Origin: Metabacillus sediminilitoris
Lineage (GTDB): Bacteria; Bacillota; Bacilli; Bacillales; Bacillaceae
Reading direction: 5' to 3'
DNA: 64,000 nucleotides
Assembly (NCBI RefSeq): GCF_009720625.1
Contig: NZ_CP046266.1
Location: forward strand, 3,419,501-3,483,500
The translations under genes and the position numbers were made by a program. Below, one piece after another: positions 1 through 12,022 of the stretch (positions within the stretch are counted from its first letter, which is position 1; the number at the start of each line of letters is the position of its first letter). The notes beneath the pieces are model-generated. The model was not told the origin of the DNA, did no database searches, and saw only the letters and a program-made list of their open reading frames with translations.

Positions 1-542
1 AACAGAGATACCCATTTGGTATGATGCGGTAATATAGCTGAATGAAGCATATCAGGATTTGTAATTACAATATGTCCTGCTTTCCTGACTTTTTGACGAA
101 TCGAAGGTGAAGTATCACCATCATATGTATATGAATTTAATTGAACACCCATCTCAGATATGATTTCATTCAGTTCGGATTTTTGATCTTGAGCTAAAGC
201 TTTTGTTGGAAAAAGATATAATGCCCGACTATTTTCATTATTCAAAATTTGTTGTAATACAGGTAAGTTATAACATAATGTTTTCCCTGATGCTGTAGGT
301 GTAACAGCAACAAAATGTGAACCGTTCTTTGCGAGCTGAAAAGCTTCATCTTGATGTGTATATAATGCCGTAATACCTCTCGATTGCAAAGTTGTTTTCA
401 ATCGTTTGTCTAACTCAGACGGTAATTTTACGAGATCAGCTTCTTTTGGTGGTATTGTATGCCAATGAACAATTTGTTCACTATATTCTTGGTCATTTTT
501 TAAAGAATCAAGTAAATTTGATAATGATTTTCTAAATTCCAT
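1..542 (-). CDS. mrfA: DEAD/DEAH-box DNA helicase MrfA (YprA), N-terminal part
   Basis: Only the first 180 codons lie in the window; the gene runs off the left edge. The protein opens MEFRKSLSNLLDSLKND and carries a Q-motif-like segment (TALYTHQDEAF) followed by Walker A in the form TPTASGKTLCYNLP and motif Ia (LFPTKALAQDQ), as in the YprA superfamily 2 helicases. In B. subtilis MrfA works with the exonuclease MrfB in repair of mitomycin C lesions. The ATG at 542 follows a GAGG about ten bases upstream. The next gene upstream is ypqE, as in B. subtilis. Assignment rests on the visible N-terminal motifs and on synteny. Confidence 0.85.
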   Translation of the reverse strand, partial: MEFRKSLSNLLDSLKNDQEYSEQIVHWHTIPPKEADLVKLPSELDKRLKTTLQSRGITALYTHQDEAFQLAKNGSHFVAVTPTASGKTLCYNLPVLQQILNNENSRALYLFPTKALAQDQKSELNEIISEMGVQLNSYTYDGDTSPSIRQKVRKAGHIVITNPDMLHSAILPHHTKWVSL

Positions 543-631
543 CTTTATACAACCTCATTTCCTCGACCTAAGATCGTATAATCTATTTTATCGAATAAAC
601 GTTCGTAAGGAAAGAGGTATAATTTGTATCA

Positions 632-659
632 AAAAAAGCAGAAAAATTTCTGCTTTTTT
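632..659 (-). terminator. Intrinsic terminator after ypqE
   Basis: A perfect hairpin (AAAAGCAGAAA paired with TTTCTGCTTTT) flanked by A and T runs on both sides lies directly after the ypqE stop codon. It would end ypqE transcripts before mrfA. Confidence 0.75.
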
Positions 660-662
660 CAT

Positions 663-1166
663 TTATTTTATTTGGACACCAAATATTTGTGAAGAGCCTT
701 TTAACACATCATCAGTGGTAGTTGCTTTATCGATTTTATCTACGATGTCCGAATTCGTGATGATGATAGGAGTAATTGTACTTGCTGCTTTTTCTTTTAT
801 TAAGGAAAGGTTTGCCGTAATTAATTTGTCACCAACTTGGACTTTCTGTCCCTCATTAACATGTACTTCAAAACCCTCACCTTTCATATTTACTGTCTCA
901 AGTCCAATATGAATGAGCAACTCAATCCCAGTTGCTGCTGAACGAAGTCCAATTGCATGCTTCGTGTGAAAAATTTGAATAACTTGTCCATCTATAGGAG
1001 CTACAATCGTCCCTTCAGTCGGTTCAATTGCCATTCCCTCTCCCATTAATTTTTGAGAAAAAACAGGATCTGGTACTTCCTCAAGGTTTAATAGCCTTCC
1101 TGTTAATGGAGCTGTAATTGATTCCTCTGTTACCTTTTTCTTTTTGTTAAAAAATGATTTAATCAT
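663..1166 (-). CDS. ypqE: PTS glucose-type EIIA protein YpqE
   Basis: A 167-residue stand-alone IIA domain of the glucose (Crr) family. The segment IELLIHIGLETVNMKGEGF contains the phospho-accepting histidine in the pattern HIGLETV. An upstream EGTIVAPIDGQVIQIFHTKHA carries the second conserved histidine of the fold. Such proteins take phosphate from HPr and pass it to a sugar-specific IIBC partner, or serve in regulation. No permease gene is adjacent, so its sugar is not evident. The ATG at 1166 follows AAGAGG. The neighbour mrfA matches the B. subtilis order. Confidence 0.88.
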   Translation of the reverse strand: MIKSFFNKKKKVTEESITAPLTGRLLNLEEVPDPVFSQKLMGEGMAIEPTEGTIVAPIDGQVIQIFHTKHAIGLRSAATGIELLIHIGLETVNMKGEGFEVHVNEGQKVQVGDKLITANLSLIKEKAASTITPIIITNSDIVDKIDKATTTDDVLKGSSQIFGVQIK

Positions 1167-1333
1167 ATAACCGCCTCTTTTCGTGAAACTCTTTTTATTT
1201 TTAACTTACCCCTTCACTTTCCTTTAAAACGAAAATTCATTTCTTAATCTTTAGAACAAGTTAGTATATTTAACCTTTTTTCTAACTCTTCATATAATAA
1301 TTTTAAATGATTCATGATAAGGAGGCTATAATT

Positions 1334-1807
1334 TTGCGTAAGAAAAATGATTTAATTAAGCAAAACACTCAACAACAAAGTGAGCAGCTTGATTTTTTTC
1401 AAATTGTCGATCAGTTTTTCCGCTCGGAGCCTTTACAGCAATTTATGAATGAATTTGATACGATGATTACAGATTCTTTTCCACACCACCATATTAATGT
1501 TAATACCTTTGAAACAGATAAAACATGTGTCATCAATTTAAAAATTCCTCCAGTAAAAAAAGAACAAATTAAACTCGAGCTTTTTGATCAGTATTTAACA
1601 ATTTCAATTACAAATCGTGAAGAAATAAAAGAATTCAATGAAAATTCTTCGACATTTAGAAATTTTACATCCCTCGATAGCATATCAAGAACAATTCTAC
1701 TCCCTTATTCGGTAAAAGAACATGACATAAAAACGAAATTTAAAAAAGGCTTATTAACAGTCACTATTCCTAAAAAGGCAAAGAAAATTCTTATCGATGA
1801 AGATTGA
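1334..1807 (+). CDS. Hsp20/alpha-crystallin family small heat-shock protein
   Basis: A 157-residue protein with a C-terminal alpha-crystallin domain. It ends with the typical strand pattern KFKKGLLTVTIPKKAKK, and the region from about residue 45 (HINVNTFETDKTCVINLKIP) forms the first strands of the beta-sandwich. Such proteins are ATP-independent holdases; some Bacillus members (CotM, CotP) are spore-coat proteins. The start chosen is TTG at 1334, placed eight bases after AAGGAGG. The in-frame ATG at 1307 lies upstream of that ribosome site and is unlikely. A hairpin terminator follows at 1835. Confidence 0.8.
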   Translation: MRKKNDLIKQNTQQQSEQLDFFQIVDQFFRSEPLQQFMNEFDTMITDSFPHHHINVNTFETDKTCVINLKIPPVKKEQIKLELFDQYLTISITNREEIKEFNENSSTFRNFTSLDSISRTILLPYSVKEHDIKTKFKKGLLTVTIPKKAKKILIDED

Positions 1808-1834
1808 ACATAATCATCACCACATATTGTAAAG

Positions 1835-1855
1835 GGTCAGACGAAGAGTCTGACC
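1835..1855. terminator. Bidirectional terminator between convergent genes
   Basis: GGTCAGAC pairs with GTCTGACC around a five-base loop. The hairpin lies between the Hsp20 gene and the convergent small gene at 1856-1981, whose stop codon touches it. Confidence 0.65.
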
Positions 1856-1981
1856 TTAGCTGTTTTTATGTGATTTACTTCCATACTTTGGATTTTCTTC
1901 TGGGGTTGGATCTTTAGCTAAATCTTTTGCTGATGTTGTTACGTCGTTTTTTTGAATTTGCTTTTGCTTATTTACACCCAT
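1856..1981 (-). CDS. Small hydrophilic protein, 41 aa, unrecognised
   Basis: The reading frame gives MGVNKQKQIQKNDVTTSAKD followed by a Lys/Pro/Asn-rich tail ending SKSHKNS. It is highly charged, has no hydrophobic core, and its composition resembles that of minor acid-soluble spore proteins, but I do not recognise a named family. Support for a real gene is a strong ribosome site (GAGGAG) seven bases before the ATG, a clean stop, and a terminator hairpin immediately downstream. The spore-protein idea is inference from composition and from sspM nearby. Confidence 0.6.
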   Translation of the reverse strand: MGVNKQKQIQKNDVTTSAKDLAKDPTPEENPKYGSKSHKNS

Positions 1982-2101
1982 AAAATCACTCCTCAAATAT
2001 ATGATTTCACATTAGGTGAAAAAAATGACTAATAAAAAAAACCAAATATTAACGTGAGAGAAAAAGTTATCACATCAAACACTATAATTGGAGGTGTGAA
2101 A

Positions 2102-2287
2102 ATGGATAAACATAAAATAGAGCTGCCTGACTTTAATGAACTAACAGATCGTATTATAGCGGAGCCAACATCATCCCCTACTCTTGTGATAAAAACAAAT
2201 TTAGATCAAGAAAATAACGAAAAAGAAAATCCTTATGCAACGAATAGGAATTCTTCAACAAGATTTAAAAACTTTTTTAAGGACTGA
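2102..2287 (+). CDS. Small protein, 61 aa, unrecognised; first gene of a tiny-gene cluster
   Basis: MDKHKIELPDFNELTDRIIA begins a 61-residue protein with an acidic N-terminal half and a polar, Asn-rich C-terminal half ending KNFFKD. The ATG at 2102 is preceded by GGAGGTGTGAAA, an excellent ribosome site, and is preferred to the upstream in-frame ATG at 2054. Its TGA overlaps the ATG of the next gene (TGATG), so the two are translationally coupled. I do not recognise the family and assign no function. Confidence 0.6.
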   Translation: MDKHKIELPDFNELTDRIIAEPTSSPTLVIKTNLDQENNEKENPYATNRNSSTRFKNFFKD

Positions 2288-2541
2288 TGGACATGGATTT
2301 TACAATTGGATATTTAATTGAATCTTTATCTAATTATGATAGAAGCTCTGTTGGTAGTAGAATCAGCAAGAAAATAGAAAAAGGGCAATTTAACTCAGAG
2401 AAGGATTTTGTCCTAGCACTTGATGAGGAAGAAATTCAATTTTTAAACAATATTTTACCAGATGAAATTAAATACGCATTTGATGAACAAGACTTTGTAA
2501 GAGGTAATCAGTTAAATGAAGTTTATGAATTGTTAATCTAA
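2287..2541 (+). CDS. Small acidic protein, 84 aa, unrecognised
   Basis: The protein begins MDMDFTIGYLIESLSNYD and ends NQLNEVYELLI. It looks mostly helical and acidic (segments SEKDFVLALDEEEIQFL and PDEIKYAFDEQDF). It starts on an ATG that overlaps the stop of the preceding gene. A second ATG two codons later is also possible. It sits between another small protein and a Tad1-like protein in the same orientation, suggesting one transcript. The compact, codon-economical sequence looks like a genuine regulatory-size protein, but I cannot name its family. Confidence 0.6.
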   Translation: MDMDFTIGYLIESLSNYDRSSVGSRISKKIEKGQFNSEKDFVLALDEEEIQFLNNILPDEIKYAFDEQDFVRGNQLNEVYELLI

Positions 2542-2561
2542 ATTTTCAAATGGAGGCTTTC

Positions 2562-2822
2562 ATGAATAGAAACAGTAATCATTACATCAATATCAAATTC
2601 CAAACAGGAGCAATTGATAAAGAAGGGGTTAATGGCTGTCAAGTTGAAGACGTAATTAATGTCCTTGTTGAAAAACTAAAATCCCATCAAAACGGAGAGT
2701 TCGCTTGTCCTGAAAATTCAATTGCCATCACCAACTTACAGAGTGCTAATTATGCACTTCGTGTAAGAAAAGAACGAATGGAGGATAAACAATTAGGATA
2801 TGAGCATAATGAAACCTTTTAG
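2562..2822 (+). CDS. Tad1/Acb2-like hairpin-domain protein (candidate), 86 aa
   Basis: The protein contains INIKFQTGAIDKEGVNGCQV, then VEDVINVLVEKL, then FACPENSIAITNLQSANYAL, then RKERMEDKQLGYEHN. As I recall them, Tad1/Acb2-type hairpin proteins of phages have the order NFQNGPIKE-GVNG-EDL-FACRENALAITKLEEAL-RTxDRxxRGV, and this matches it block for block. Those proteins sequester cyclic nucleotide immune signals (Thoeris or CBASS). The Arg-rich end is altered here (RVRKERMEDKQ). The ATG at 2562 follows GGAGG by five bases. No phage genes surround it, so the role in this host is open. The family call is from remembered motifs, not a search. Confidence 0.5.
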   Translation: MNRNSNHYINIKFQTGAIDKEGVNGCQVEDVINVLVEKLKSHQNGEFACPENSIAITNLQSANYALRVRKERMEDKQLGYEHNETF

Positions 2823-2943
2823 CACAAAGAAATTTTCTAATACTGATGTGAATGAAGTCAAACGCTTAAATGCAAAATCTGGATTATCCTATAATGAAGT
2901 CAAACAATTACTGGAATCCAATTTTAAAAAGAGTATACGGTAA
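2809..2943 (+). CDS. Very small protein, 44 aa, overlapping the Tad1-like gene
   Basis: The frame MKPFSTKKFSNTDVNEVKRL continues NAKSGLSYNEVKQLLESNFK and ends KSIR. It begins 14 bases before the end of the previous gene. NTDVNEVKRLNAKSG recalls the TDVxxVKxxNAxS motif of gamma-type small acid-soluble spore proteins, but the protein lacks their Gln-rich repeats. The ribosome site is poor, so translation would rely on coupling to the previous gene. Low-confidence coding call. Confidence 0.35.
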   Translation: MKPFSTKKFSNTDVNEVKRLNAKSGLSYNEVKQLLESNFKKSIR

Positions 2944-2993
2944 GTATTCTTTTCTAATTACCCTGTCTAAAAGATCATGTCTTTTTCACATAA

Positions 2994-3067
2994 TGACGGG
3001 CGGTAACCCACCACCTTTGCTTCGTGATCTACTAAGCATATTGGAGGGTATTACTGCCCGTGTATAA
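2994..3067 (+). repeat. Short palindromic intergenic element (copy C)
   Basis: GGGCGGTAACCCACCACC at the left pairs with TTGGAGGGTATTACTGCCC at the right to form a long imperfect hairpin of about 65 bases. The same layout, with different bases in the arms, occurs on the minus strand at 59043-59107, where it belongs to a larger element. This copy lacks the rest of that element. It lies between the small-gene cluster and yppG. Confidence 0.5.
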
Positions 3068-3082
3068 AACATAAATTATGAA

Positions 3083-3547
3083 TTACTTAAACATTGAGGT
3101 CACTCCTTTAAAAAGCCCCCCCATTTGGTTTACAGCACTCATCATTTGTCCTGCAGTGTCCATCATCTTATTAATATCTAGTTGCCCATCTGATTTCTTG
3201 AATTGTGAAATGACCGATTGAATTCCCGTAGGCTGTTGTTTAAAATTTGGCGCTGGTTTTGGATATGGTGTCGGATATGGTGTATTTACAAATTGCCCAT
3301 TTATATTACTACCATTTCCATAATAGGGCTGAAACGAATTTTGATATGGTTGTTGATATACTTGTTGAAATGGTTGCTGGGGCTGGTATTGGTTTTGGAA
3401 CGAATGTTGTAACATAGAAGGGTGCTCATTTTGCGCAAATTGTTGAAATGACGGCTGTTCATATGGATTAATAGATGAAAAAGGCTGATAAAATCCATTT
3501 TGACTTCTTCTTGGTCTTCTATGAAAAATTGGATATTGCTGATTCAA
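3083..3547 (-). CDS. yppG: YppG-like Gln/Pro/Tyr-rich protein
   Basis: A 154-residue protein whose first two thirds are rich in Gln, Pro, Tyr, Asn and Phe. A conserved C-terminal block follows: [19 protein letters not shown] and [17 protein letters not shown]. This end matches the YppG family of Bacillus, of unknown function and probably linked to sporulation. The start chosen is TTG at 3547, seven bases after GGAGG; the TTG at 3565 lies upstream of the ribosome site. Location near sspM and yppE agrees with the B. subtilis order. Confidence 0.7.
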
Positions 3548-3690
3548 TTTTCTTCCTCCTTCCAATAATCGGAACCTTGGTTGTTTTTACTATATGATGT
3601 AAATGCCCATCTGGTGAAACAATTGAATACATGTTTGTGTGTGAATTTGCTCATATTAGAAGTGTAACAATTAAAGGAGGTTTTTCGAGC

Positions 3691-3855
3691 ATGGCTAGAG
3701 GAAAACATTTTAATCATAAAGAACGAGGACATGAACCAACAATTCCAAAACATGGTCAACAGGTTGTAGAAAAGAAAATAGAACATTTAGGATATGCTAT
3801 TGAACCGGTTGCAAGCGAAAATCAAGCTCCTGTGACAGTTAAAGTCGAGAAATAA
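3691..3855 (+). CDS. Small basic protein, 54 aa, unrecognised
   Basis: MARGKHFNHKERGHEPTIPK begins a 54-residue soluble protein, basic and His-rich at the N-terminus, ending VTVKVEK. AAAGGAGG lies 11 bases before the ATG and a strong terminator hairpin follows (3931-3966), so it is very likely expressed as a single gene. Position between yppG and yppE suggests one of the small sporulation-associated genes of this region, but I do not recognise it and claim no function. Confidence 0.6.
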   Translation: MARGKHFNHKERGHEPTIPKHGQQVVEKKIEHLGYAIEPVASENQAPVTVKVEK

Positions 3856-3930
3856 GAATATAATAATTGAATTAATATATGTAAAGGTACCTTTCAAATA
3901 TATAAACGTCTACATTTTAAAGACATATGT

Positions 3931-3966
3931 AAGGGAAACACATTCGATTCACAGTGTGTTTCCTTT
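3931..3966 (+). terminator. Terminator hairpin after the 54-aa gene
   Basis: GGAAACACA and TGTGTTTCC pair around a loop of about a dozen bases, with A residues before and TTTCG after. It is the first strong hairpin downstream of the gene at 3691-3855. Confidence 0.6.
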
Positions 3967-4200
3967 CGTGTAAAAATCAGTATCAAGACTATTACAAAGT
4001 TAACGAAAAACAATCCTCCTTGGAATACATGGAGAATTTCCCCTCTTATAACCTTGAAGGACAATACCCGTCGTTTAGCTGGAGAATTGTCCTTTATAAT
4101 TGAAACACTGAGATTGATCAACGGATATAAGGAAAAGTGAAATAAATGCTAACTTACTTTATCATTTTTCCTTCAATAGTGGTTATCTAGAGTTTGAACG
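3967..4200. other. Intergenic region with an AAGGACAAT/ATTGTCCTT inverted repeat
   Basis: No credible gene. A nine-base perfect inverted repeat (4057-4065 with 4086-4094) encloses 20 bases. It lacks a T run and is not a typical terminator. Similar TTGTCCTTTA strings occur in other intergenic regions of the window (near 33710 and 59030). The rest is AT-rich sequence without recognisable signals. Confidence 0.4.
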
Positions 4201-4563
4201 TCAAAGCACGTCATCAATTTCAGCAAGAATACTTTTAATTATATATTCGACAGAATGATGTAAATTGTGAAATCTTTGCTTATTAATATCTTTATAAAAA
4301 GATTGCAACACAATTTGTTCAATATTTTCAATTGTTGATTCAATTTGTGAAAGATGGATATATTTAGGTTTTCGATTCTTTACCCATGCTTCAGCTAAGG
4401 GTTTCCATTTATTCGCCTGATTCATGACCAACTCAAAAGCAGGTCTTACTTCTTTATAAAATAAAGCTTCTGTTTTTTCTGGTTTTTGAATAATTTTTTC
4501 AAATCTATCTTTACATTCATTTAATTGTTGCAGAAGATCTTTTGATGTTGAAATTAGATTCAT
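4201..4563 (-). CDS. yppE: DUF1798 family protein YppE
   Basis: A 120-residue all-helical protein (MNLISTSKDLLQQLNECKDR), close to the 123 residues of B. subtilis YppE, whose fold is a small helical bundle of unknown function. Conserved-looking elements include YKEVRPAFELVMNQANKWKP and HHSVEYIIKSILAEIDDVL. The start at 4563 is chosen because GAGGTG lies six bases upstream. The ATG at 4611 would create an overlap with the neighbour and has no ribosome site. The upstream gene at 4601-4873 is probably co-transcribed. Confidence 0.75.
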   Translation of the reverse strand: MNLISTSKDLLQQLNECKDRFEKIIQKPEKTEALFYKEVRPAFELVMNQANKWKPLAEAWVKNRKPKYIHLSQIESTIENIEQIVLQSFYKDINKQRFHNLHHSVEYIIKSILAEIDDVL

Positions 4564-4600
4564 GAAGTTCACCTCAGATCTAATCATATCAGATACAAAT

Positions 4601-4873
4601 TTATTTCGCATATTTTAGATTTGTTGCTATAAAAGGAAAGCAGGAAGCATGAAACTGATTATTATCATTATTTAGATGTGCTTCTCTATCCCTATCAACT
4701 CTAGAAATCATTTCTGTTAGCTGCTTGTCAATTTGAAGTGCATCTTCCTCTAATTTCATCTCCATTTTTTGAGTCGAAATTTTCTCTAAAAAAACACCTT
4801 CAAGTGCAAAAAGTTCTTGTTCTAATTCAGCTAATTTTCCTACGATTACACTCTTTTCAATGATATTTTTCAT
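4601..4873 (-). CDS. Small coiled-coil protein, 90 aa, unrecognised
   Basis: The sequence MKNIIEKSVIVGKLAELEQE and the following 50 residues have a heptad-like spacing of Leu and Ile with many Glu and Lys, consistent with one long amphipathic helix. The C-terminus (FHASCFPFIATNLKYAK) is different in character. GGAGGG precedes the ATG, so translation is well supported. It occupies the place of yppD/yppF in the B. subtilis order, but I cannot match it to either with confidence. Confidence 0.55.
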   Translation of the reverse strand: MKNIIEKSVIVGKLAELEQELFALEGVFLEKISTQKMEMKLEEDALQIDKQLTEMISRVDRDREAHLNNDNNQFHASCFPFIATNLKYAK

Positions 4874-5047
4874 CTTTCTCCCTCCTCTTTATGCTACTAA
4901 TTCTCTGAATAAATTTGATTACCTTCCCACTTGACAAAAGTAGTTTCTATTCGTCAAAGAAAGTGAAAAAAAGCATTCTTCGACATTTCTTATTACTTGA
5001 ATGAAACAAAAAGGTTTGAACAAACTATTTACTAGGAGGTGCTAAAA

Positions 5048-5152
5048 ATGGCAAAAAAACCAAAAGGCAAACAACAACAAACAACTGAAGAAAAAGGTCG
5101 CTTCACGACTGGAGATAAAAAATTAGATGGGCCTAATCGTCCATCAACTTAA
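5048..5152 (+). CDS. sspM: Small acid-soluble spore protein M (SspM)
   Basis: A 34-residue Lys-rich protein, MAKKPKGKQQQ at the start and KKLDGPNRPST at the end. The C-terminal block is nearly identical to that of B. subtilis SspM, which is also 34 residues. SspM is a minor spore core protein made in the forespore, so expression by the late forespore sigma factor is expected. AGGAGG lies seven bases upstream of the ATG. It converges with yppC across a shared terminator. Confidence 0.88.
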   Translation: MAKKPKGKQQQTTEEKGRFTTGDKKLDGPNRPST

Positions 5153-5185
5153 TCACCGTTTTAAAAATTTTATTTTAGTACGAAA

Positions 5186-5210
5186 AAAGCAAGGACATTG
5201 TCCTTGCTTT
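5186..5210. terminator. Bidirectional terminator between sspM and yppC
   Basis: AAAGCAAGGA pairs with TCCTTGCTTT around a short loop, with an A run on one side and T-rich sequence on the other. It serves both convergent genes. Confidence 0.8.
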
Positions 5211-5213
5211 CTT

Positions 5214-6206
5214 TTAACCATTCCTCCAATATTCTTGCAGCAATGTGAGTAAATGCAATTGATCTTGTTTATGCTTGAACCACTCAGTTAATTCATAATG
5301 ATTAGGTACTTTTTTCTCCTTAAACCACTTTTCTGTATCTTGACCATGAAACCAATCTTTTCTATTTTCGTCTATTGAATGTGAAACCATTGGATAACTC
5401 GTCCGTAATAAAGGTGTTTCTCTTTTTCGAAATTCGGGAAAATATCGTTCGTAATCATATCGCGAGCCTGTATGTGGAACAGATTTTGAAAACGTAATAA
5501 ATTGATCATATAAACCTGCTGAAAATAATAACCATGCCAGCTGTTTTCCAAGCTCAATTCTATTTTTTAAATGATTAAATTTTGAAACTGAAAAACCGAA
5601 CAATTTACCGCTTAAAATTGGAAATACGACTGTACTAAAATGGAATCGATCCTGAATCTTATATGGTATCGTTTTAAACACTTTGTCTTTATATTTTTTG
5701 TTATCTATAACCGGGTTTTGTATAATGTTTTGTTCATTTATGATAAGTGCTGTCAATAATCGCTCTGTTTGATCTTCTTGCCAAAATCGAGTCCATTCTA
5801 TTTCCATAAAATGAGATACTTGAAAGGCATTTAATAAATAAAATAAAGGTTTATTACGTTTTTTTGACCACTCATACAGCAGAAGTTGTGGGTATGCATC
5901 CTGAAAGATTGTCCAATTTGCATGTTCATAGGTCATAAACAGCAGGCTTCTTTGCTCAATACTTAAAGCTTTTCTAAGCCATTTTCCTTGTAAATCTGTC
6001 ATGCTCCACCCTGCATTCCTTGAAACCATGCTAGCTAGATATGCCCATTTAATTTCGGGATGTCGAAAATAAAAATCTTCATATGCCTTTGTCCTAGATA
6101 TATTGTCATAATTTTTATTATTTGTCGTATTAACTATATGTGAGACGATTTCGTCATCGTTGGGTTCCAATGTAGCCAAATCTAATCGTTTTTTTTTGAT
6201 GAACAT
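5214..6206 (-). CDS. yppC: DUF2515 family protein YppC
   Basis: A 330-residue protein, close to the 320-odd residues of B. subtilis YppC, of unknown function. It begins MFIKKKRLDLATLEPND and is rich in aromatic residues (for example RHPEIKWAYLASMVSRNAGW and WTRFWQEDQTERLL). I see no signal peptide or clear membrane span. The start ATG follows GAGGTGA. It is transcribed divergently from recU, an arrangement shared with B. subtilis. Confidence 0.78.
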   Translation of the reverse strand: MFIKKKRLDLATLEPNDDEIVSHIVNTTNNKNYDNISRTKAYEDFYFRHPEIKWAYLASMVSRNAGWSMTDLQGKWLRKALSIEQRSLLFMTYEHANWTIFQDAYPQLLLYEWSKKRNKPLFYLLNAFQVSHFMEIEWTRFWQEDQTERLLTALIINEQNIIQNPVIDNKKYKDKVFKTIPYKIQDRFHFSTVVFPILSGKLFGFSVSKFNHLKNRIELGKQLAWLLFSAGLYDQFITFSKSVPHTGSRYDYERYFPEFRKRETPLLRTSYPMVSHSIDENRKDWFHGQDTEKWFKEKKVPNHYELTEWFKHKQDQLHLLTLLQEYWRNG

Positions 6207-6337
6207 GACTTCACCTCATATTCTGTATCGTCTCCAACTTGAAGAAAATGTACACATTTACAAAATTGAAACTTTTTTATCATCTCTTTCTTGATATTTT
6301 TGATATGATAAGTGTAGTTTTAGTTAGGAGGTAAAGT

Positions 6338-6931
6338 ATGATTTTTCATTACCCGAATGGAAAGCCTTATCAGCCAAAGGCACAAGTGGAGCAAAAAAAA
6401 CAAAAAACACTTACATATAGCAATCGAGGTATGATACTTGAAGATGATCTAAATGAAACAAATAAATATTATTTAGAAAATAACCTTGCCGTTATACATA
6501 AAAAGCCAACACCTGTTCAAATCGTCAATGTTGATTATCCAAGAAGAAGTGCTGCTGTCATCAAAGAAGCCTATTTTAAACAAAGCTCAACAACTGATTA
6601 TAATGGCATTTATCGCGGGAAATACATTGATTTTGAAGCAAAGGAAACAAAAAATAAAACGTCATTTCCTTTGCAAAATTTTCATGAACATCAGATTGTT
6701 CATATGGAAAATGTCTTACATCAAGGTGGAATCTGCTTTGTTATTTTATCAGCATTTAATGAAATTTATTTTTTAGAAGCACAGCACCTCTTAACATTTT
6801 GGAAACGTCAAGAAGCTGGTGGAAGAAAATCATTTACGTATAATGAACTAATTGAAATAGGATACAAAATTCCGTTAGGGTATCAAGCAAGGATTGACTA
6901 TCTAAAAATTATCGATAAACTATATTTTTAA
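6338..6931 (+). CDS. recU: Holliday junction resolvase RecU
   Basis: A 197-residue nuclease close to the usual length (about 200). The catalytic core is visible as [20 protein letters not shown] followed by [15 protein letters not shown], giving the Asp, Glu and Lys of the metal-dependent active site. The N-terminal YPNGKPYQP segment is characteristic of the family. RecU resolves recombination intermediates and segregates chromosomes after repair. AGGAGG precedes the ATG. It is followed at 79 bases by ponA in the same direction, the conserved recU-ponA operon. Confidence 0.94.
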
Positions 6932-7010
6932 GGTATTTTCCTTATAAAAATTTTGGAAACTTATAATAACCCTTTTTATTTAAAGGCCTATTATGAAAGG
7001 TTGGTAGTAT

Positions 7011-9686
7011 ATGTCTGAACAATATACGAGTCGTGAAGAAAGAAAAAAACAACAGGCTCAAAAATCTGCAAATAATAAAAAACCAAAAAAGAAAAAATTA
7101 AATAAGTCTGCACCATTGTGGAAGAAGATTCTTTTAACTTTACTTGCAATTGGTATAGTTGGTATGGTTGCAGGCGGAATTACATTCGCAGCGATTGTAG
7201 CCGGTGCTCCACCATTAGATGATAAAAAACTTAAGGATTCATTCTCTTCTAAAGTTTACGATATTAATGGCGAGGAAATTACTGAGTTTGGTCAAGTTAA
7301 ACGGACGTATACCCCTTATGAAGATATTCCTAAAGTTCTTGAAGATGCCGTTCTTGCAACTGAGGATGCACGTTTTTATGAGCATAGCGGTGTTGACTTT
7401 ATCCGCTTAGGCGGAGCATTAGTAGCGAATCTACAAGAAGGATTTGGAGCTGAAGGCGGCAGTACGATCACTCAGCAGGTTATTAAAAACTCACTTTTAA
7501 CGACAGATAAGACGATTACACGTAAAGTTCAAGAAGTATGGTTAGCCTTTCAATTAGAACAAAAATATTCAAAACAAGAGATTCTGGAAATGTATTTAAA
7601 TAAAATTTACTTTGCAGGTAATATTTATGGTGTTGCCCAAGCTGCTGAGTCATTTTATGGAAAAGAATTAGGTGATCTAGAGCTCCATGAGGCTGCAATG
7701 ATTGCAGGTATGCCACAAAGTCCTAATAACTATAACCCTAGAACAAGTCCAGAAAAAGCTGAAAAACGAAGAAATATTGTTTTATCATTAATGGCTAAGC
7801 ATGGTTTTATTACAGAAGCTGAGGCAAATGAAGCAAAAAAAGTACCAGTACAATCCACTGTTGTTGAACCAACAGAAAAAGCCAATCCATACCATGCATT
7901 TGTCGGCGAAGTTATTGAGGAAATAAAAGAAAAAACCGATATTGATGCAGGTTCAGCAGGATTAGAAATCTATACTACATTAGATCCTGAGGCACAGGAT
8001 ACGGTAGAAAATGTTCTAAATGGTGATGAAATTGAATTTCCTGATGAGGAACTTCAAGCAGGTATTGCCTTAGTCGATACAAAGACAGGTGAAATTCGAG
8101 CACTTGGCGGCGGCCGCAATCAGCCGGTAGGAGGATATAATTATGCAACAGATACGAAACGTCAGCCAGGATCTGTTATAAAGCCTGTACTGGATTATGG
8201 TCCGGCTATCGAACATTTAAAATGGTCAACTTACAAGCAAATCACTGATGCACCATATTCTTACAGTGATGGTACTCCTATTAACAACTGGGATAGAAGT
8301 TATAAGGGTGAAATGTCAATTCGTAATGCTTTAGCTGATTCAAGAAATATTCCAGCTGTAAAAGCAATACAAGAAGTTGGTTTAGAAAAAGCTCAGAAAT
8401 TTGCTCAGGGCCTTGGCATTCCACTTGATGAAATATATGAATCATATGCGATCGGCGGATTTAATGATGGTGTTTCCCCTCTGCAAATGGCTGGTGCTTT
8501 CAGTGCCTTTGGTAATAATGGTATTTTTATCGAGCCGCATACGGTTAAGAAAATTGTCTTAAGTGATGGAACAGAAATTAGTCTTGCACCTGAGCCAGAA
8601 GCTGCAATGAGTGATTATACAGCGTTTATGATTACTGACATGATGAAATCAGTTGTTGAATATGGTACTGGTAAATCTGTCAATTCGCCTCCAATTAATA
8701 TTGCAGGTAAAACTGGTACAACAAACTTTACTCCAGAGGATAAAGCAAAATACAATGTACCTTCTGGAGCAGCCAAAGATGCCTGGTTTGTCGGTTATAA
8801 TCCAAACTATACTGCAGCAGTCTGGACTGGATACAATATTTCGAAAGATAGTGATAAGGTGTATTTAGATTCTTCTGATCAAAGACTTGCACGTGCTATT
8901 TTTAAAGAAGTCTTTACTACTGTAGCAGAAGGAGATACATCAGATTTCGAACAACCTGATAGTGTAGTTAAAAGAGCAGTAGAAATAGGTTCGAGTGAGG
9001 CTGTATTAGCAAGTGACTATACTCCTTCAAGTAAAATAAGGTATGAATATTTTGTAAAAGGTGAAGAGCCTAAAAAGGTTTCAAAGAAATACGAAAAGCC
9101 TGAAAAGCCTAAGAAACCTTCAAATTTAAATATTAACTATGATCAAGTTTCAAATACAATTACAGTAAATTGGAGTCATGATCAAGATGTTACATTTGAG
9201 GTAAGTCAATCTACAGATGAAGGACCTTACAATGTCGTAGCAAACTCTAAAAATACCTCGTATCAGGTAGGTAATGTTATCCCTGGAGCCATATACACAT
9301 TCCAAGTCGTGGCAGTAAGTGCTGAAAATACTCGAAGCGATGCTGCTGCAACGAAAATACAGGTACCTGAGCCAGAGGTAGACGTTCCAGAGCTCCCTGT
9401 TGAAGAAGGTCAAGGTGATGATGTACAAAATGGTGAAGATCAAAATGATGATCAGAACGAGAACGAGAACGAAAACGAGAATGAAAATGGCAACGGCAAT
9501 GGGAATAGCAATGGAAATGGAAATGAAAATAATAATGGTGGTAATGGCAACGGAGAAAACCAAGAAGATACAGAAAATGAGGGTGATACAGAACAAACTC
9601 CGCCTTCAACTGAAGCTACTACCCCACCTCAAAACAACGCTGGTAAAGAGGATGAGGAACAACAAAATAATAATGATGGAGAATAA
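7011..9686 (+). CDS. ponA: Class A penicillin-binding protein 1 (PonA)
   Basis: An 891-residue bifunctional peptidoglycan synthase. It has a basic cytoplasmic tail, one membrane span (about residues 38-64), a glycosyltransferase domain with catalytic glutamate near residue 118 (ATEDARFYEH) and GGSTITQQV, then a transpeptidase domain with SVIK near residue 388, an SRN motif, and KTGTT near 566. A fibronectin type III-like domain (about 702-785) and an acidic Asn/Glu/Gly-rich tail follow. Downstream of recU as in B. subtilis, where it makes septal and side-wall peptidoglycan. The low-complexity tail is unusually repetitive. Confidence 0.95.
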   Translation: MSEQYTSREERKKQQAQKSANNKKPKKKKLNKSAPLWKKILLTLLAIGIVGMVAGGITFAAIVAGAPPLDDKKLKDSFSSKVYDINGEEITEFGQVKRTYTPYEDIPKVLEDAVLATEDARFYEHSGVDFIRLGGALVANLQEGFGAEGGSTITQQVIKNSLLTTDKTITRKVQEVWLAFQLEQKYSKQEILEMYLNKIYFAGNIYGVAQAAESFYGKELGDLELHEAAMIAGMPQSPNNYNPRTSPEKAEKRRNIVLSLMAKHGFITEAEANEAKKVPVQSTVVEPTEKANPYHAFVGEVIEEIKEKTDIDAGSAGLEIYTTLDPEAQDTVENVLNGDEIEFPDEELQAGIALVDTKTGEIRALGGGRNQPVGGYNYATDTKRQPGSVIKPVLDYGPAIEHLKWSTYKQITDAPYSYSDGTPINNWDRSYKGEMSIRNALADSRNIPAVKAIQEVGLEKAQKFAQGLGIPLDEIYESYAIGGFNDGVSPLQMAGAFSAFGNNGIFIEPHTVKKIVLSDGTEISLAPEPEAAMSDYTAFMITDMMKSVVEYGTGKSVNSPPINIAGKTGTTNFTPEDKAKYNVPSGAAKDAWFVGYNPNYTAAVWTGYNISKDSDKVYLDSSDQRLARAIFKEVFTTVAEGDTSDFEQPDSVVKRAVEIGSSEAVLASDYTPSSKIRYEYFVKGEEPKKVSKKYEKPEKPKKPSNLNINYDQVSNTITVNWSHDQDVTFEVSQSTDEGPYNVVANSKNTSYQVGNVIPGAIYTFQVVAVSAENTRSDAAATKIQVPEPEVDVPELPVEEGQGDDVQNGEDQNDDQNENENENENENGNGNGNSNGNGNENNNGGNGNGENQEDTENEGDTEQTPPSTEATTPPQNNAGKEDEEQQNNNDGE
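9453..9563 (+). repeat. Low-complexity hexanucleotide tract in the ponA 3' end
   Basis: Repeats of GAGAAC, GGCAAC and GGAAAT-like units encode runs of Asn-Glu followed by Asn-Gly in the PonA tail. Such tracts expand and contract by slippage. Confidence 0.7.
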
Positions 9687-9711
9687 GAATTGTAACTCTC
9701 CACTAATAATT

Positions 9712-9745
9712 AAAAGGGATTACTCAAGACGAGTAATCCCTTTTT
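9712..9745. terminator. Terminator shared by ponA and ypoC
   Basis: AAAAGGGATTACTC pairs with GAGTAATCCCTTTT around AAGAC. The last codons of ypoC lie inside the stem, so this one hairpin ends both convergent transcripts. Confidence 0.85.
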
Positions 9746-10278
9746 AACTTTTTAATTGCTTGTTTTTTAAAATAAGATTTTTCAAGTTCAGCAAATAATT
9801 GATCTAATTGTACAAAGGAATGGTATTTCATAGGGTTGCTAAGTACAAATGTTAAACGTTCTTCACAATTAATCGGCGTTATTTGTAATTCTGAAATCCG
9901 CATATTTTTCACTTTCAAAGTGGGAACAGATGATTCATTCATCCAGAATAGACAAACAATAAATAATGAAAGGCTTTGAATGATTACACTCTTATTTTGT
10001 GTGCTGCCTCTTTTTTTATATCCTTCATAAACTTCAGGTTTAAGTTCTTTCCATTGCTTTAATATAATTGGAATGGTTTTATCTAAATTTCTCCATGGTT
10101 CCTCAACCAACTGACTTTTTATAACCTGCAGCATATCATAATATAAAGGTTCCTTTTTGATGATTGTCGCAAATTCTAACCCATCTTGAAAAACTGCAAA
10201 TGTTGAGTCAATATCAAAAAATGGTTGGATTAGAAATGATTCTGGAACTAGAAATTCATCATTTTTATTATTTAGCAT
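9724..10278 (-). CDS. ypoC: YpoC family protein
   Basis: A 184-residue soluble protein of unknown function beginning MLNNKNDEFLVPESFLIQP. It has the typical position of ypoC, downstream of nth and facing ponA. Its ATG overlaps the last codons of nth by 11 bases, so translation is probably coupled, and its stop codon falls within the terminator stem. Segments such as QVIKSQLVEEPWRNLDKTIP and HSFVQLDQLFAELEKSYF suggest an all-alpha fold. Function is not known. Confidence 0.75.
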   Translation of the reverse strand: MLNNKNDEFLVPESFLIQPFFDIDSTFAVFQDGLEFATIIKKEPLYYDMLQVIKSQLVEEPWRNLDKTIPIILKQWKELKPEVYEGYKKRGSTQNKSVIIQSLSLFIVCLFWMNESSVPTLKVKNMRISELQITPINCEERLTFVLSNPMKYHSFVQLDQLFAELEKSYFKKQAIKKLKRDYSS

Positions 10279-10933
10279 TAGTAGATATTACCTTTTTCAT
10301 CCGCTTCTGTCCTTCTCTACATAAGTGTAAAAGTGGACAAATTTCACATTTTGGAGATTGAGCTTTACAATGATATCTGCCGAAAAAAATCATTCTATGA
10401 TGTGTTTGTGACCATTCTTCTTTTGGAATTTTTCTCATTAATGTTTTTTCCACTTCTAAAACTGAATCCTTCCAGCGACAAATTCCTAATCGTTTGCTAA
10501 CTCTTTCTACATGTGTATCAACTGCAATCGCAGGTTCACCAAATGCTACCGACATAACAACATTAGCTGTTTTCCGGCCAACACCAGCAAGTTTAGTTAA
10601 TTCTTCATGTTGATTTGGAACCTGACCATTATATTGTTCTAAAAGCGTTTCACAGAGACGGCGGATATTTTTCGCTTTATTGCGATACAAGCCAATGGAC
10701 CTTATATCTGATTGTAATTCCTCTAATGAAACAGCAAGGTAATCTTCTGGTGTTTTATATTTCTGAAAGAGATTTTTGGTCACTTTATTTACAAGTGCAT
10801 CTGTACATTGAGCGGATAATGCAACAGCAATAACAAGTTCAAATGGATTAGCATGAATTAATTCACAATGTGCATCAGGAAACATTTGTTCAAATGTATC
10901 TAAACATTCTCGAATTTGAATTTTCGTTAACAT
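10268..10933 (-). CDS. nth: Endonuclease III (DNA glycosylase/AP lyase)
   Basis: A 221-residue base-excision repair enzyme that removes oxidised pyrimidines and nicks at the abasic site. The helix-hairpin-helix with catalytic lysine reads LAGVGRKTANVVMSVAFG, and the catalytic aspartate is in AIAVDTHVERVSKRLG. The C-terminal [4Fe-4S] site is intact as CKAQSPKCEICPLLHLC (spacing 6, 2, 5). Followed by ypoC with overlap. In B. subtilis dnaD lies directly upstream of nth; here a terminator and a 250-base repeat element separate them. Confidence 0.95.
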   Translation of the reverse strand: MLTKIQIRECLDTFEQMFPDAHCELIHANPFELVIAVALSAQCTDALVNKVTKNLFQKYKTPEDYLAVSLEELQSDIRSIGLYRNKAKNIRRLCETLLEQYNGQVPNQHEELTKLAGVGRKTANVVMSVAFGEPAIAVDTHVERVSKRLGICRWKDSVLEVEKTLMRKIPKEEWSQTHHRMIFFGRYHCKAQSPKCEICPLLHLCREGQKRMKKVISTNAK

Positions 10934-10952
10934 ATTATCACCTTCTAATATT

Positions 10953-11150
10953 CGCCAAAAAGCGAGACTTTCATTTGTAGGGTTTCTTTTAGCCCTACTA
11001 ATGATTGCGTACTTATCACGCTTAGAATGCCACCTTCATGTGTTTTCGGCTTGACAAGTCGTTGTTGGCCCCCTTGGTACTTCGTCTGATCTTTACTGGC
11101 AGTCCTCCCTCCCCTTATTAGCTTTGATTCACCAAAATCAAGGGTATTGG
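10953..11150 (-). repeat. Structured dispersed element (copy A) between dnaD and nth
   Basis: Read on the minus strand, this stretch contains the core TTCTAAGCGTGATAAGT, then a hairpin (CATTAGTAGGG with CCCTACAAATG around CTAAAAGAAA), then AAAGTCTCGCTTTT. The same core, hairpin position and end motif recur at 58935-59040 with different stem bases. The upstream 100 bases are GC-rich for this genome. An open frame of 87 codons runs through it but has no ribosome site and is not considered a gene. Confidence 0.6.
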
Positions 11151-11173
11151 TTTTACTACCTGTTTTAATGAGA

Positions 11174-11201
11174 TTAAAAAGAGAGCTAAACGCTAGCTCT
11201 C
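11174..11201 (-). terminator. Terminator of dnaD
   Basis: On the minus strand GAGAGCTA pairs with TAGCTCTC and is followed by TTTTTAATC. The stem includes the last codons and stop of dnaD. Confidence 0.8.
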
Positions 11202-11897
11202 GAGCCAATTATAAAACGGAACTTTTCGTTTATACTCATCTTGATGTACTTGTTGTGTAGAAGCATTACTTTGATTCTGTCGGAATTTTTTAGCATGATT
11301 TCGTGCTTGATCAATGGTACGAATCCCATTCTTCTTCCATTCAAAAAGAATTCTATCGATATAGCGAAAGTTCAATTTCCCTGACATGACTGCTTCCCTT
11401 AAAGCAGCTTTAATAATAACAGGATCATAATCCTCTTGATCAATCCAAATAGCTAATGTTTCACACTCAAATGGTGACAATGGTCTGCCAAATTCATTTT
11501 CAAATATTGTATATAAACTTTCGTCCTCTTGCTTACTTTGTTCCTGTGCTTTTATTTGATTTTCTTGAGTTAAATAGGAATATAACTTGTTCCAAAGCGG
11601 TTTTAAAGAGTAATTTTCATAAAGAATGGTATTTGCTTCACATTCTTCAATTGTTAAAAAACCTCTTTGAATTAAGCTTCTTAAGATAGACGTACAATCT
11701 GAAGTTGAGATTGACATGTGTTCGGAAAGCTCAGTTGGAGTAGGAAATTGATTACCAATTTGTTTAAATTTCCTTACTTGGAGGATCATCATAAATTCCT
11801 CTTCATTTAAGCCTAACTTGGCATAGTAATTAAATAAAATAACTGGTATTGAGACACTTCCAGTTTCTTGCATATAAATAAATTGGTCTTTATTCAT
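11193..11897 (-). CDS. dnaD: DNA replication initiation protein DnaD
   Basis: A 234-residue protein (B. subtilis 232) with an N-terminal winged helix (MNKDQFIYMQETGSVSIPVI to about residue 100) and the C-terminal DnaB/DnaD domain. The latter includes the signature EFGRPLSPFECETLAIWID and YIDRILFEWKKNGIRT. DnaD helps load the replicative helicase at oriC and at restart sites. The ATG at 11897 follows GAGGTG by seven bases; longer forms lack a ribosome site. It is the next gene downstream of asnS, ending in its own terminator. Confidence 0.93.
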   Translation of the reverse strand: MNKDQFIYMQETGSVSIPVILFNYYAKLGLNEEEFMMILQVRKFKQIGNQFPTPTELSEHMSISTSDCTSILRSLIQRGFLTIEECEANTILYENYSLKPLWNKLYSYLTQENQIKAQEQSKQEDESLYTIFENEFGRPLSPFECETLAIWIDQEDYDPVIIKAALREAVMSGKLNFRYIDRILFEWKKNGIRTIDQARNHAKKFRQNQSNASTQQVHQDEYKRKVPFYNWLES

Positions 11898-11978
11898 CAA
11901 ACACACCTCACCTTCAAGTATAACATGACCACTCCGCTCATGTATAAAATCAATCTGGGTTATTTTTTTCCAAAACAT

Positions 11979-12022
11979 AAAAACGGCTCTTTATGAGCTA
12001 TAAAAGCTATTAAGAGCCATTT
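11979..12022 (-). terminator. Terminator after asnS
   Basis: On the minus strand GGCTCTT and AAGAGCC pair across a larger loop that itself contains AGCTTTTATAGCT, followed by GTTTTTATG. It separates asnS from dnaD. Confidence 0.7.

Follow-up and report, generated by a model that had tools for sequence, protein, structure and literature searches.

A Tad1-related host gene kept at one chromosomal place in four families of Bacillales

Tad1 (Thoeris anti-defense 1) is a viral counter-defence protein that soaks up immune signal molecules; the examples used here are that of SBSphiJ7 and those with structures in the PDB, CbTad1 (7uav, 7uaw and 8smd) and CmTad1 (8kbb-8kbd). In CbTad1, positions 92 and 109 are presumably residues of the gcADPR site. 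Bastillevirinae phages of Bacillaceae encode Tad1 homologues; of eight such phage regions examined, six have a RecA or recombinase gene next to the homologue. The second system of relevance is a set of CsgA and YbxH genes, which we take to be a sporulation operon of Bacillus; csgA is SigG-dependent in B. subtilis. Here we analyse a stretch of 64,000 nucleotides from the chromosome of Metabacillus sediminilitoris (hereafter the window, to which all plain positions refer), in which a Tad1-hairpin host gene, named TADL in this report, directly follows csgA.

TADL occupies 2562..2822 on the + strand and encodes 86 aa, from the ATG at 2562 to the stop codon at 2820-2822. A first-pass annotation had placed an open reading frame at these positions, and the four motifs that it quoted, EDVINVLVEKL among them, are all present in the order given. 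Another in-frame ATG at 2550 would overlap the GGAGG at 2552..2556 (+), the presumed ribosome-binding site five bases ahead of ATG 2562, so that the latter is the likely start; purine-rich stretches lie upstream of TADL at 20 loci. The opposite strand of 2562-2822, read in register, contains stops, and TADL is single-copy in its own genome according to a genome search. The matches to phrog_2428 and to PDB chains, together with an intact frame and a low dN/dS, confirm that the open reading frame is real, beyond chance.

The relationship to Tad1 was assessed by several kinds of search. In a PHROGs profile search TADL matches phrog_2428 with E 2.7e-19, an unnamed family that SBSphiJ7 Tad1 itself matches with E 8e-47, and three TADL orthologues from two other bacterial families reach 2.5e-15 to 7.9e-20. 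Among PDB chains, phmmer returned CmTad1 (8kbb, 6.7e-8), gp184 (8y6v, 1.2e-6) and CbTad1 (7uav, 2.3e-6), while a profile made of 12 host sequences alone gave 1.5e-12, 1.0e-7 and 9.5e-10 for the same three proteins, respectively. In pairwise alignment the identity is 38% with SBSphiJ7 Tad1 over 72 columns and 40% with the Goe8 homologue over 77 columns. We conclude that TADL shares ancestry with phage Tad1. The host profile also matched the macrodomain AF1521 (1vhu) with E 0.019, which did not recur when a wider profile was used and which we regard as a chance match. Searching Pfam, NCBIfam and PADLOC with TADL gave no match, and this includes Pfam PF24729 (Acb2_Tad1_hairpin) at its curated cut-off. 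SBSphiJ7 Tad1 passes that cut-off; the model fails on phage relatives too (Goe8 scores 19.7 bits and L031 22.6 for a cut-off of 27, and P1046 and L029 have no match), so its miss of TADL carries little weight. That the host branch is missed by PF24729 means that host copies can escape annotation.

The AF2 model of TADL has the two-helix hairpin fold of Tad1, with a predicted helix 1 at residues 28-43 (2643..2690, +) and a predicted helix 2 at residues 50-83 (2709..2810, +). In a Foldseek search with this predicted hairpin, ranks 1-20 were all Tad1 chains, and the predicted fold of a TADL orthologue from another family likewise counted for Tad1 likeness. The resemblance to Tad1 that the first reading had seen in the order of motifs is supported in sequence and in predicted fold.

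For the residues of the putative site, 12 host rows were compared with 23 phage or prophage rows. Both sets have in common Q14, G16, G22, N24, G25, E29, E51, N52 and R69, each present in at least 21 of the 23 phage rows, and the polar core N24, E51, N52 and R69 is kept in all 12 host rows. The codons of N52 (2715..2717, +; 22/23 phage rows) and R69 (2766..2768, +; 23/23 phage rows) encode residues that align with chain positions 92 and 109 of 7uav_C (CbTad1), and the structural alignment pairs them without gaps. Around this core the rim is different. E71 and R72 (codons 2772..2777, +) do not vary among the host rows but are seldom seen in those of phages, A65 stands in a column where 16/23 phage rows have Trp, and the K/R70 column holds Thr in 21/23 phage rows and in no host row. 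Position 73 is hydrophobic in the host (M, L, V or I) and Arg in 23/23 phage rows and 0/12 host rows of the ungapped alignments. The HMMER alignment has a one-residue gap after R69 that would bring R72 opposite the phage Arg, and the structural and MAFFT alignments have no such gap, so the loss of the phage Arg at M73 depends on the alignment chosen. The RGVEG tail is lost in the host copies. An altered C-terminal Arg/Asp pattern, as remarked in the first-pass annotation, is borne out under either alignment. If the ligand had changed, one would expect the core to be retained and the rim to differ, as is seen here; the loss of a ligand would fit as well.

TADL stands in a presumed operon of small genes. 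Upstream of it lie hsp20 (1307-1807) and a weak terminator-like hairpin (1833..1857, +; 1 found versus 1.5 expected in shuffles), which is the only one in 1200-4200, with none within 2102-2943. These are followed on the - strand by a 41-aa gene ending ..DPTPEENPKYGSKSHKNS (1856-1981), which recurs at almost every TADL locus without matching any family, and which may encode an undescribed small spore protein. A conserved stretch at about 2032-2070 (about AAAAAAxCCAAA..TTxxCGxGAGAxAAA) separates this gene from ybxH in most aligned Metabacillus loci and fits none of the sigma consensus strings tried. The first gene of the presumed operon (2102..2287, +) encodes 61 aa without a family match, a protein that we take to be YbxH-like. 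The last base of its stop codon is the first base of csgA (2287..2541, +; Pfam PF17334, E 1.9e-29), whose end is 20 bases 5' of TADL. PF17334 is presumably the sporulation CsgA of Bacillus; its description as 'Minor curli fiber component A' looks like a mix-up of names. CsgA found no match among PDB sequences at E up to 1.

Downstream, a 47-aa gene (2800..2943, +) has possible starts that overlap the end of TADL, as in 14 of 15 loci, and TADL may be translationally coupled to it. The 47-aa protein has a weak likeness to gamma-type small acid-soluble spore proteins (SASP), with E 0.026, or 0.0072 for an orthologue, both below cut-off. In one Metabacillus genome (L014:1730-1840) it is shortened to 36 aa beside an intact TADL, so that the two genes are separable. 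Further on come yppG (3083-3565), with a YppG family match, and an SspM-like gene (5048-5149; E 1.6e-6, below the curated cut-off). The earlier picture of neighbours of unknown function needs correcting in that CsgA and YppG are identified and one further gene resembles SspM. The surroundings look like housekeeping genes: no phage gene was seen by eye among the window's open reading frames of at least 30 aa up to position 9000 and at least 150 aa beyond, with family searches up to about 5150. No RNA family reached its gathering threshold in window positions 1-12000. Consensus promoters with up to one mismatch in 17 regions gave SigG 1, SigF 0 and SigA 0, versus 1.9, 0.3 and 0.1 expected in shuffles, and sigma-70-like sites in 1200-4200 were at chance (12 found, 13.1 expected).

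The distribution of the gene is patchy. Sixteen of 21 Metabacillus genomes match TADL. Fifteen of these have intact copies, among which that of G014 is 79 aa long because its tail is shorter, and the copy of G016 breaks off about 20 residues from its start; TADL is thus absent or cut in six. All 15 intact loci have the same order: hsp20, the oppositely oriented 41-aa gene, the ybxH-like gene, csgA, TADL, the 47-aa gene and yppG. No intact copy occurs in the other 59 genomes of the family, where the single match, in G022, occupies the corresponding position and has an in-frame stop. An evenly drawn set of 397 genomes from the order contains at least eight that match: the own genome, five with host-type copies and two with full-length Tad1 genes. 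Among 398 genomes drawn from the class at least three match, all of them members of the order (the own genome, G110, and G125 with its prophage copy). Matches may have been missed in both draws, since no more than the first 13-14 candidate stretches of each genome were scored. The five host-type copies (G059, G146, G436, G110 and G152) belong to three other Bacillales families, with 1/18 genomes in that of G436, 2/4 in that of G110 and 2/2 in the third, and all five are flanked by this hsp20 on one side and by yppG on the other, csgA adjoining in three. In G152 a Hol44-like phage holin gene (L080:6837-7109, -; PF16079, E 3.4e-12) is placed between TADL and yppG, and a similar holin open reading frame, by eye, occupies the same place in G110 (L082:5939-6235) and also lies downstream of csgA in L122 and L124. 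A tblastn search of 72,556 plasmid records at E 1e-3 gave no TADL relative.

Loci without TADL are informative as well. Of 15 genomes searched for csgA, 11 have it; TADL matches are lacking altogether in 13 of the 15. In nine csgA loci from TADL-less genomes, csgA leads to the 47-aa gene in three (L115, L120 and L122), and the other six (L117, L118, L119, L121, L123 and L124) continue without it. csgA and the 47-aa gene thus occur without TADL, which is therefore dispensable. The csgA-to-47-aa gap of L115 (G012, a Metabacillus) has a possible 3' remnant of TADL, with a DNA score of 36 that none of 200 shuffles reached and a protein score of 40 that 3/200 did, although part of this stretch belongs to the 47-aa gene, at its conserved beginning. 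Nothing clear came from the remaining eight TADL-less loci, the next best (L120) being equalled by 7 and 14 of 200 shuffles. Both ancestral presence with many losses and exchange at the locus fit the patchy distribution.

Phages and prophages hold many relatives: TADL has them in 64 phage records, and two scans of viral contigs, overlapping in their contigs, gave 40 and 35 loci. The viral rows that were aligned, 8 from viral contigs and 13 from phage records, are all of phage type. Two genomes of the order draw, G125 and G359, have full-length Tad1 genes among prophage-like late genes, as judged by eye; these prophage genes (L083:8422-8793 and L084:8063-8446) are inside what looks like a head-gene cluster. 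Of the 20 host copies, 12 entered a tree together with 23 chosen phage or prophage rows (13 of the 64 phage records, 8 of the 40 viral loci and two prophages). In this unrooted tree a single branch, with 100/100 support and a stem of 1.61, divides all host rows from the others, and the host part is poorly resolved. TADL belongs to the bacterium and has the same chromosomal location in four Bacillales families. Synteny and clade support the chromosomal host homologue that was first offered as one origin, as opposed to a prophage gene, and the synteny in four families together with the single 100/100 host clade makes a recent capture unlikely.

Selection was estimated by the Nei-Gojobori method among the 15 Metabacillus copies, with synonymous sites near saturation. 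The median dN/dS of TADL is 0.046 (64/105 pairs usable) and that of its residues 1-75 is 0.025 (41/105 pairs), for 0.082 in csgA (54/105 pairs) and 0.153 in the 47-aa gene (50/66 pairs, from 12 of 15 loci). TADL is under purifying selection in Metabacillus.

The explanation that we prefer, tentatively and with slightly less than even confidence, is that TADL is a host-owned, probably sporulation-time protein of Tad1 fold that would still bind a nucleotide-like ligand. It would share one message with csgA and the 47-aa gene, expressed most likely in sporulating cells, and would assemble through its helical hairpin, as Tad1 does. The core of N24, E51, N52 and R69 would bind a nucleotide-like small molecule non-catalytically, and TADL might store, buffer or sense the molecule while the cell develops or lies dormant (in the forespore or spore). 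The changed rim, hydrophobic at M73, with E71 and R72, Ala for Trp at 65 and no RGVEG, would imply a ligand or an affinity unlike that of phage Tad1. As no sigma consensus was above chance, the timing is something that we infer from the SigG dependence of B. subtilis csgA, from the weakly SASP-like neighbours and from the SspM-like gene nearby. A bolder version, which we regard as possible and rather doubtful, is that spore formers own a sporulation-time 'sponge' of the Tad1 kind, which would sequester or keep in store a cyclic or NAD-derived nucleotide of the cell's own, the host and phage genes being sister lines. If this were true, the fold that phages use as an anti-immune device would also serve host signalling or spore dormancy.

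The alternative that survives best, and that we still hold somewhat unlikely, is a structural spore protein in which the hairpin would be an oligomerisation module only, ligand binding having been lost, and would pack with CsgA or SASP-like proteins. A position with csgA on one side and a weakly gamma-SASP-like gene on the other would suit such a role, as would the changed rim, the lost RGVEG tail and the domain relative in gp184, a phage virion chain. The residues conserved between host and phage, however, include the polar Q14, N24, E29, E51, N52 and R69, two of which pair gap-free with CbTad1 109 and 92 (R69 and N52), and the dN/dS of TADL is below that of csgA.

A second alternative keeps the immune context, in that a captured anti-defence gene would hold back Thoeris or CBASS of the host itself, sparing the cell from death by false alarm. 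Matches to ThsB_TIR are present in 7/21, to SMODS in 4/21 and to TIR_2 in 8/21 Metabacillus genomes. The homology to Tad1 speaks for this idea, and six of the 15 intact carriers have at least one of the three matches; nine, the own genome included, have none, and two of the six genomes without intact TADL have one. Over the 21 genomes there is no sign of association between TADL and these three enzyme families, the only ones compared, and numbers are small. Since nine carriers lack all three, self-protection against Thoeris or CBASS is unlikely to be the general role of TADL, and we consider the captured-gene reading improbable.

Far less credible is a host decoy that would co-assemble with incoming phage Tad1 and poison it, a dominant-negative counter-counter-defence. 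A hairpin without the N-terminal part or the tail would be apt for it, and the Bastillevirinae phages of Bacillaceae would supply the target, but the distance of the host clade from phage Tad1 (the stem of 1.61) makes mixed oligomers doubtful, a place beside csgA would be odd, and the nine carriers without the immune matches speak against it too. A decaying, functionless prophage remnant, which the phage relatives, the prophage-like clusters of two genomes and the broken copies in G022, G016 and possibly G012 might bring to mind, is hardly conceivable given 15/21 intact copies in the genus and the same place in four families, and is refuted for Metabacillus by the strong purifying selection (median dN/dS 0.046).

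Returning to the preferred reading of a host-owned protein with a putative ligand, we think that a host branch under selection raises two questions: whether sponges of this kind act on the nucleotide signals of the bacteria that encode them, and whether the fold was taken by phages from their hosts or the reverse.

Among the described systems, Acb2 is grouped with Tad1 in the name of PF24729, and the title of the T4 Vs.4 structure (7uq2) has cGAMP binding, but no sequence match to TADL was seen: no Acb2 was recognised among the 14, 12 and 9 PDB chains listed in three sequence searches, and 7uq2 surfaces among chance-level structure rows only. Of the Tad1/Acb2 likeness first proposed, the Tad1 half stands on sequence and predicted fold, and the Acb2 half is not supported, so that Acb2 is rejected as a label for TADL. 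Another system is gp184 (8y6v chain I), presumably phiKZ gp184 as a chain of a virion structure, which has the same domain near its C-terminus, as do phrog_22140 and phrog_23843 (200-230 aa); all three differ from TADL in being much longer and phage-borne. The presence of the domain in a virion chain means that the fold alone is no proof of ligand binding. By eye, phage proteins of about 206 aa (L037:4602-5219 and similar viral contigs) have a C-terminal Tad1 hairpin behind a signal-peptide-like N-terminus, and the Tad1 domain may have other uses in phages. The CsgA/YbxH operon of Bacillus is the frame that houses TADL, with the difference that the nine TADL-less csgA loci read on without it. 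Tad1 itself has the homologous helical hairpin and the core of FQxG...NG and EN...R in common with TADL. TADL host proteins have 78-88 aa, counted from the conserved start as some frames open further upstream into csgA, compared with 117, 120 and 142 aa in three phage Tad1-type proteins, and they have neither the part of Tad1 that precedes the hairpin nor its C-terminal RT..R..RGVEG motif. Moreover, Tad1 is borne by phages and prophages, whereas TADL is chromosomal, at a fixed place, and beside csgA in three of its four families.
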